64,000 nucleotides of DNA from Pyrobaculum islandicum DSM 4184 (lineage in GTDB: Archaea; Thermoproteota; Thermoprotei; Thermoproteales; Thermoproteaceae), in NCBI RefSeq assembly GCF_000015205.1, contig NC_008701.1, forward strand, positions 1,677,436 to 1,741,435. Reading direction: 5' to 3'. A program made the translations under genes and the position numbers. The number at the start of each line of letters is the position of its first letter. Within the stretch, counting starts at the first letter, position 1. Under the pieces are notes generated by a model. It was not told the DNA's origin. It did no database searches and was given only the letters and a program-made list of their open reading frames with translations. Of the stretch, positions 7,849 to 27,855 are shown one piece after another.

Positions 7849-7926
7849 AAACTCCTAGGGCGCTTTGCCAATCTAAAGCTATTGTTGTTGGCGAAAAACT
7901 TTTTAAAGTGAGCCGTAGTTAGAGCC

Positions 7927-8059
7927 GCCCCGGCTAGACGGGGGCCGTAGCCAGCCGGCTACCCCAACCGGTAGTATAGCCCGGACTAGTATATGGCCAT
8001 GTGCCAGCTAAAGCGGGCCTGTCGAGCCCGTGACCCGGGTTCAAATCCCGGCCGGGGCG
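7927..8059 (+). tRNA. tRNA-Asp(GTC) with two introns
   Basis: The 3' part is plain: anticodon arm CGGGC-CTGTCGA-GCCCG gives anticodon GTC, T-arm CCGGG/CCCGG, acceptor CCGGGGC, discriminator G. The matching 5' strand GCCCCGG is at 7927-7933 but is parted from TAGTATAG by 38 bases (about 7934-7971, boundaries movable by up to four bases), so an intron lies at the base of the acceptor stem. A second intron of 20 bases (7993-8012) lies between D-arm and anticodon stem, about position 25/26. CCA follows directly (8060-8062). Confidence 0.85.
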
Positions 8060-8136
8060 CCATTGTCTCAACTCTTTAACCTACGTGCCCAATTTTTCTA
8101 TTTATAACTTTCAGAAGTATTTTCGGGATAGAAACA

Positions 8137-13782: not shown

Positions 13783-13902
13783 TATATATATTCTTCCGAG
13801 GTTCTATCTTATAGAGTGCCGCTGGAGTGCCGCCCTAGGCGGCTCTATGATAGTCGGCCCCCCGGCCTTAAATTTTAAAAATAGCTATTTACATAAAGGC
13901 AA

Positions 13903-27154: not shown

Positions 27155-27727
27155 GTGCCTGTTTTATCTAAGCCTTGCATATTTGCAGGGTCTTGTCCAG
27201 GCGATTTAGGCGATACAGAAGTTCTATGGTTCGGGAGTCAACTCTGTGTTTCAAAAGCGTCAAGTATAGTCAAGGTTTTCGGTGCTTTAGAAACTGCGTT
27301 GAGTTATATAAATGCAGCTGCCGTCATTTGCAGAAGACAGAGGAAGTGTCTCCTGAGGGCTTATTGGTCTTTGTTTAACCTCGGGTTCTATCTCTCAACT
27401 GGTGCGGAGAGGTACTATACGAAAAGTCTTTACATGTTGAGAAAAGCTCTTAGATGTCTCTACCCACTTCTGCCGGACACGCCAGTGGGTTGGCTTGTGT
27501 GTATAGATGAATGTTGTACAGTCATCAATAATGCGAGGGTTTGGGTCCGGTGGGCGGAGAGGCGGCTTGCCGCAGTTGAGGAGGGAAGAGAAGCTATCTT
27601 TATTCTAAACCACTTGGGAAACCTCTTGTTTGAACTAATGAGAACTTGCAAACACGGCGTTTGGACAAAAGGGAGGTATTATGTCATAGAGCCAGAAAAC
27701 GAAATACATACACCCCCGTTGGCGTAA
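27155..27727 (+). CDS. PduO-type cobalamin adenosyltransferase-like protein
   Basis: A 190-residue helical protein. The N-terminal stretch GDLGDTEVLWFGSQLCVSKA followed by VFGALETALSYINAA resembles the ATP-binding start of PduO-type ATP:cob(I)alamin adenosyltransferases (TGD.G.T....G.RV.K.....YG..DE..S.IG). The key Asp-Glu after the Gly is replaced by Leu-Glu, and the protein has an unusual number of cysteines. It may be a diverged, repurposed member. GTG 27155, close behind the Pcc1-like gene; tRNA-Ala follows. Confidence 0.45.
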   Translation: MPVLSKPCIFAGSCPGDLGDTEVLWFGSQLCVSKASSIVKVFGALETALSYINAAAVICRRQRKCLLRAYWSLFNLGFYLSTGAERYYTKSLYMLRKALRCLYPLLPDTPVGWLVCIDECCTVINNARVWVRWAERRLAAVEEGREAIFILNHLGNLLFELMRTCKHGVWTKGRYYVIEPENEIHTPPLA

Positions 27728-27758
27728 AGTATAAAAAGTGAATGCTTGAAATAGGCGA

Positions 27759-27850
27759 GGGCCGGTAGTCTAGCGGAAGGATGCCCAGGGGCTAGGCCCC
27801 GCATAGGCCTTGCACGCGGGTGATCCCGGGTTCGAATCCCGGCCGGTCCA
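27759..27850 (+). tRNA. tRNA-Ala(TGC) with 20-nt intron
   Basis: Acceptor GGGCCGG/CCGGTCC contains the G3-U70 pair that identifies alanine tRNAs. The anticodon arm CCC..GC-CTTGCAC-GCGGG gives anticodon TGC once the intron 27787-27806 (AGGGG..CCCCGCATAG) at position 29/30 is removed. T-arm CCGGG/CCCGG. CCA follows directly (27851-27853). Confidence 0.92.
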
Positions 27851-27855
27851 CCATC

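Follow-up and report, generated by a model that had tools for sequence, protein, structure and literature searches.

The splicing endonuclease cleaves the three-base bulges on either side of a four-base-pair helix, an arrangement termed the bulge-helix-bulge (BHB) motif. Introns at position 3/4 have been described in certain tRNAs of the Thermoproteales by Sugahara et al. 2008, as cited in PMC4090602, and multiple noncanonical introns, those at position 25/26 included, are typical of Pyrobaculum (PMC4090602). Very similar introns across the tRNA genes of one species have been explained by intron transposition, according to Fujishima et al. 2010 as cited in PMC4090602 and PMC4033280. The class of intron treated here is already known, and the part worth following is a conserved copy of the 5' acceptor strand that lies in the leader of the gene. 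No mention of this leader copy was found in the literature covered, in which Sugahara 2008 and Fujishima 2010 figure through citations, and it is likely unreported.

The tRNA-Asp gene and its surroundings

The window is a stretch of 64,000 nucleotides (G000:C1:1677436-1741435) from the single-contig genome, 1,826,402 bases in length, of Pyrobaculum islandicum. An intron-bearing tRNA-Asp had been proposed for it in the initial annotation. ARAGORN reports the unspliced gene as 'tRNA-???', and Rfam misses it. Removal of the two introns listed below restores a sequence that ARAGORN recognizes as tRNA-Asp(gtc), 78 nt long, with a complete 7-bp acceptor stem and an encoded CCA that ends at 8062, which bears the proposal out. 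The features of the gene, in coordinates of the window, are as follows.

7900 to 7907, plus strand: TATA-like box TTTTTAAA from a PWM scan, 27 nt upstream of the leader copy and 44 nt upstream of the true tRNA 5' end
7927 to 7933, plus strand: leader copy of the 5' acceptor strand, GCCCCGG, a probable provisional acceptor strand; found in all 31 acceptor-intron genes and part of no BHB
7934 to 7943, plus strand: remainder of the leader, CTAGACGGGG, whose GGG at 7941-7943 and G1 together make up the 5' strand of the central helix in the BHB
7944 to 7946, plus strand: tRNA-Asp exon 1, GCC, positions 1-3; all 29 intact genes share the register CC^G, with C2 and C3 in the first bulge
7947 to 7967, plus strand: intron 1, 21 nt, position 3/4, a hairpin segment; all 29 genes have a 4/4 central helix and an inner helix of 3 bp or more, with covariation
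7968 to 7992, plus strand: tRNA-Asp exon 2, positions 4-25, beginning CCGGTAG, placed by the BHB register test
7993 to 8012, plus strand: intron 2, 20 nt, position 25/26, with a BHB of its own; near-identical in the G004 gene L014
8013 to 8062, plus strand: tRNA-Asp exon 3, from position 26 to the encoded CCA; anticodon GTC at 8021-8023 and 3' acceptor strand CCGGGGC at 8052-8058

A genome-wide match search with the tRNA-Asp found no second full-length match, the next best being two tRNA-Glu genes, so this single gene should be the working gene for tRNA-Asp(GUC). An uninterrupted tRNA-Asp(GTC) gene elsewhere in the genome, which the initial annotation had named as grounds for doubt, was sought and none was found. 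A tRNA pseudogene was rejected on the same search, together with the intact body of the spliced tRNA-Asp. The exons lie on one strand, adjacent to one another, within 119 nt and with a single TATA box upstream. A trans-spliced split tRNA was rejected because the exons stand behind that one box and not on separate transcripts. The junctions had also been described as close to split-tRNA junctions known in related archaea. This agrees with 25/26, which coincides with a junction of the Caldivirga tri-split tRNA (PMC4090602), but is overstated for the acceptor stem, as the literature covered yielded no split tRNA with a junction at 3/4 or 7/8. Comparison of the gene with phages gave matches only to Sulfolobus spindle-shaped virus, all of them to the tRNA 3' half.

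Several other small RNAs were observed along the way. At 27544-27853 of the window, ARAGORN calls a tmRNA and a tRNA-Pro(agg) at a place that reads as a tRNA-Ala(TGC) gene with an intron; both calls are probably intron artefacts. An Rfam match at 13814-13870 is to the H/ACA-like small RNA PyrR204 (77.8 bits). In another genus of the Thermoproteaceae, the tRNA-Asp genes L053 (G017:C24) and L054 (G018:C55) are interrupted at 37/38 by about 95 nt, a segment with complementary ends (CATCGCCCCGCC / GGCGGGGCGATG in L053) and with a TATA-like box 28-29 nt upstream of the second arm. Each looks like a split tRNA-Asp whose halves are adjacent and whose 3' half has a promoter of its own, as in Aeropyrum pernix (PMC3218864), or else like a gene with a long intron.

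Promoter spacing and the start of the transcript

For 40 other tRNA genes of the same genome, the PWM scan places the start of the TATA-like box at a median of 29 nt upstream of the mature 5' end. Among the acceptor-intron genes of the family, the box lies at a median of 28 nt upstream of the copy and 46 nt upstream of the true 5' end, the few outliers being genes in which a second AT-rich stretch was picked instead. A TATA box of T. tenax is reported to stand 26 nt upstream of a mapped start site (eLife; PMC4731332), and small-RNA reads from that species are deposited as GSE72127 (PMC4731332). Because the spacing matches the copy rather than the true 5' end, transcripts should begin at or near the copy, which for the gene in the window means at or close to 7927. 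By the same measure most tRNA transcripts of P. islandicum would have nearly no leader, with tRNA-Asp, both tRNA-Glu and one tRNA-Met as clear exceptions. That tRNA-Met gene (L072, G000:C1:1259109-1259182) has its TATA-like box 47 nt upstream of the 5' end, and it is the only other tRNA gene of this genome with a clearly longer predicted leader.

Distribution and conservation of the leader copy

A covariance model recovers 31 genes at E below 1e-9, from 14 of the 19 Thermoproteaceae genomes searched and from two genera. The leader copy accompanies the acceptor intron in 31 of 31 of these Asp and Glu genes. Weak matches to the model outside the Thermoproteaceae (E about 1e-4) were set aside; nearly all are ordinary Asp or Glu genes, or 5' halves of them, that have neither the acceptor intron nor the copy.

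The copy reads GCCCCGG in 22 of 30 genes, GCCCTGG in 5, GCCCCGC in 2 and GCTCCGG in 1. Beyond the 22 exact copies, then, six carry a single C-to-T change that retains G-U pairing, and two carry C at position 7, the last pair. L118, the 31st gene, has a longer linker and an exact GCCCCGG copy. Each copy was located as the best match to GCCCCGG in a 30-base stretch, a placement that favours a match, yet exact seven-base matches in 22 of 30 genes exceed by far what best-match placement would yield. Conservation was measured on parsed records instead of on a MAFFT alignment, which divided the copy between columns. Mean pairwise identity among 28 nonredundant genes is 93% within the copy, against 29-33% in upstream 7-mers and in the downstream linker. 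The linker itself varies in length from 4 to 23 nt, and its sequence is at background (33% identity). Gene conversion between Asp and Glu genes may inflate the conservation of the copy, yet the linker diverges freely.

All seven positions of the copy are pairable with the 3' acceptor strand in 26 of the 28 nonredundant genes, and six are pairable in the other two; of shuffled leaders, 3.3% pair at all seven. The acceptor sequence read is the same in all genes, so covariation between copy and acceptor could not show. Predicted folds of the 28 unspliced precursors pair the copy with the 3' acceptor strand at a mean probability of 0.90 at 37 C and 0.93 at 70 C.

In the Asp and Glu genes read from another genus of the Thermoproteaceae and from a further family of the Thermoproteales, GCCCCGG stands once downstream of the promoter, with no intron at that place and no copy, and the inserted segment is therefore derived. 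Within P. islandicum, the introns of tRNA-Asp and of both tRNA-Glu genes are near-identical, and the shared unit reaches upstream into the leader copy and linker. A truncated tRNA-Glu pseudogene of the same genome (L099, G000:C1:1202223-1202290) retains the leader copy and the 3/4 intron, and resembles the intact G004 gene L056, upstream sequence included.

A history of insertion might by itself account for the copy. With the same intron borders, the copy would then have no role: it would be the original tRNA 5' end, left stranded by the promoter when a cassette of fresh GCC, intron and CCGG was inserted behind it, and its similarity among genes would come from recent ancestry or from recombination between Asp and Glu genes. 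The location of the copy, at the promoter distance where intronless tRNA genes begin, is consistent with this account, as are the single intronless GCCCCGG of the outgroup genes, the nearly identical Asp and Glu introns within one genome and the short direct repeats (CCGG) that flank the inserted segment. We nevertheless regard it as unlikely, though a serious contender. A stranded end does not lead one to expect that the linker should diverge in both length and sequence while the adjoining seven bases are still 93% identical, nor that most changes in the copy should preserve pairing with the 3' acceptor strand. A single gene offers a natural experiment on a decayed copy. L014 (G004:C1, about 1131.7-1131.8 kb, minus strand), from a near relative, is a tRNA-Asp gene without intron 1, possibly through precise intron loss. 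Its long leader is kept, but decay of the copy to GCCGCGG has broken the pairing. That the match to the acceptor is gone in a gene with a long leader and no intron argues against a copy that never had a role.

The same gene gives some encouragement to another explanation, in which CCCC of the copy pairs with GGG(A/G) of the leader, and the resulting 5' hairpin displays the cleavage site to RNase P or shields the end of the transcript, with the match to the acceptor a by-product. The leader of L014, a gene without intron 1, keeps a perfect hairpin although its match to the acceptor is lost, GCCGCG:CGCGGC, and by inspection a short hairpin between the copy and GGGR before G1 is possible in most leaders. 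A hairpin of this kind leaves the conservation of G1 and G7 of the copy unexplained, however, and in L009 and L011 the best hairpin uses the linker while the copy is nonetheless intact. In predicted folds, moreover, the copy prefers to pair with the acceptor (0.90), and the hairpin reaches only 0.12 even in the spliced form. We consider this explanation improbable.

Borders of the introns

The inserted segment is flanked by CCGG on either side, and to the eye any junction between 3/4 and 7/8 of the leader copy would fit. Possible registers were compared in 30 family records that contain the segment, 29 of them intact. The records had been selected for GCC with at least three central and at least three inner pairs, and comparison of register against register is the fairer measure. 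In the 3/4 register (7946/7947), every one of the 29 intact Asp and Glu genes has 4/4 central pairs and three or more inner pairs. Across the 21 distinct sequences, the eight BHB pairs are kept in 99.4% of cells, and pairing falls to 27-59% when the partner is slid by one to three columns. Two-sided changes in the intron 1 BHB number 25, compared with 7.8 in shuffles (sd 3.8), and none of 500 shuffles scored as high. Since only this register gives a BHB, and with compensatory changes, intron 1 is on the register comparison the 21 nt at 7947-7967, position 3/4.

That GCCCCGG at 7927-7933, or its first three bases, is instead the true 5' exon, with about 38 nt removed, hardly any leader and no need of RNase P, is very improbable: promoter spacing suits a transcript start at 7927, and the 38-nt removal likewise gives an ARAGORN tRNA-Asp(gtc), but each of the five possible junctions that use the copy as exon (3/4 to 7/8) yields a BHB central helix in 0 of 29 genes, the copy is variable in 8 of 30 genes, and the published position for such introns, as reported in PMC4090602, is 3/4. 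The initial annotation had taken GCCCCGG for the 5' exon and set an intron of about 38 bases at the base of the acceptor stem. It was right that GCCCCGG lies about 38 nt from the rest and that the acceptor stem is interrupted; the 5' exon is GCC at 7944-7946, 17 bases away from where it had been put, and the BHB motifs, which it had proposed to look for by folding the precursor, are placed by the register comparison at 3/4 and 25/26.

In the intron 1 BHB of P. islandicum, GGG of the leader and G1 of the exon pair with intron CCCC, the bulges are CC^G and AA^C, and the inner helix is TAGC:GCTA. The G of exon 1 is the final base of a GGGGG run. A second intron of 20 nt near 25/26 had been proposed correctly, and its placement at 7993-8012 gives a central helix TAGT:GCTA (4/4), an inner helix TGGC:GCCA (4 pairs) and bulges AT^A and AA^G. 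Both predicted introns have the 4-bp central helix and, on each strand, a 3-nt bulge with an XY^Z cleavage site, and their removal restores a normal tRNA, the features by which an archaeal noncanonical BHB tRNA intron is recognized. RNAfold applied to whole precursors rarely predicts the whole BHB, with a mean central-helix probability of 0.13, and GC-rich alternatives dominate.

A proposed maturation pathway

Our main reading, to which we assign a probability of roughly 0.6, is that the window holds a working tRNA-Asp gene with an intron at 3/4, in which the leader copy serves as a provisional acceptor strand that tethers the three-base 5' exon during splicing and is then displaced. From the intron borders, the BHB covariation, the conservation and complementarity of the copy, the promoter offset and the enzyme genes, all of them observed in sequence, we infer an order of steps, a tethering and a strand exchange.

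The primary transcript would begin near 7927, and its first seven bases would be the copy of the 5' acceptor strand. GGG at the end of the leader, with G1, would pair with the intron to form the four-base-pair centre of the BHB. The heterotetrameric splicing endonuclease would cut after C3 (7946) and before C4 (7968), the 25/26 intron would be freed through the second BHB, and the exons would be ligated by RtcB. Meanwhile the copy (7927-7933) would be paired with the 3' acceptor strand (8052-8058) as a provisional acceptor stem, which may keep the tRNA body folded and the short 5' exon tethered to it between cleavage and ligation. RNase P would be excluded from the real 5' site, inside the BHB helix, and would be offered only an end at or near the natural transcript start. 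After ligation, the restored strand GCC+CCGG would displace the copy from the 3' acceptor strand, and as the last step the 17-nt leader would be removed by RNase P.

The central helix of the predicted BHB encloses the site at which RNase P would cut. Splicing should therefore come ahead of 5' end trimming, in agreement with the earlier suggestion that the acceptor intron has to be removed before RNase P can act normally. The leader supplies three of the four nucleotides in the 5' strand of this helix, so that a transcript lacking a leader could not be spliced at all. The genome encodes a homologue of the EndA catalytic subunit, closest to PDB 2zyz_B, and an RtcB ligase. It also encodes a truncated T-type RNase P RNA at 1,063,576-1,063,783 on the minus strand, for which the published coordinates in P. 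islandicum DSM 4184 are 1063572-1063783 minus (PMC7191817).

That the copy forms a temporary acceptor stem which keeps the three-base 5' exon in place during splicing, blocks early RNase P cleavage and is swapped after ligation, so that tRNA maturation would include a programmed exchange of strands, is put forward tentatively, with the odds somewhat against it. Even after splicing, predicted folds still favour the copy over the true strand (0.80 vs 0.18), and in these models that preference is a real weakness of the exchange step. As the copy outcompetes the true strand in folding, strand exchange would need tertiary structure or proteins, or else does not happen as proposed.

This organism grows at close to 100 C, where a tRNA interrupted behind its third base has almost nothing to retain the first exon once it has been cut. 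Most tRNA transcripts of this organism seem leaderless and hence have nothing from which to build the splice motif; a leader copy would explain how such an extreme intron is tolerated. The predicted leaders further suggest that the precursors of tRNA-Asp, two tRNA-Glu and one tRNA-Met clearly need trimming by RNase P, which bears on why a stripped-down RNase P is kept.

Comparison with known systems

Among the closest described systems are the noncanonical BHB introns of the Thermoproteales (Sugahara 2008, as cited in PMC4090602). The gene in the window shares with them the order, the 3/4 position, the BHB borders, the presence of another noncanonical intron within the gene and a heterotetrameric endonuclease. 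It differs in its leader copy, in a BHB that relies on bases of the leader and in its promoter offset, none of which was found described in the literature covered. The translocatable tRNA introns of the Thermoproteales (Fujishima 2010, as cited in PMC4090602 and PMC4033280) resemble the near-identical introns of the Asp and Glu genes, whereas the unit seen here extends into the leader copy and linker. In the split tRNAs with pairing leaders of Nanoarchaeum, Caldivirga and Aeropyrum (PMC3218864), as in the pathway proposed for this gene, sequence outside the mature tRNA keeps the exons together for BHB cleavage. Unlike those, the gene in the window is a single transcript that acts in cis, and its outside sequence mimics its own acceptor strand instead of extending an intron stem.
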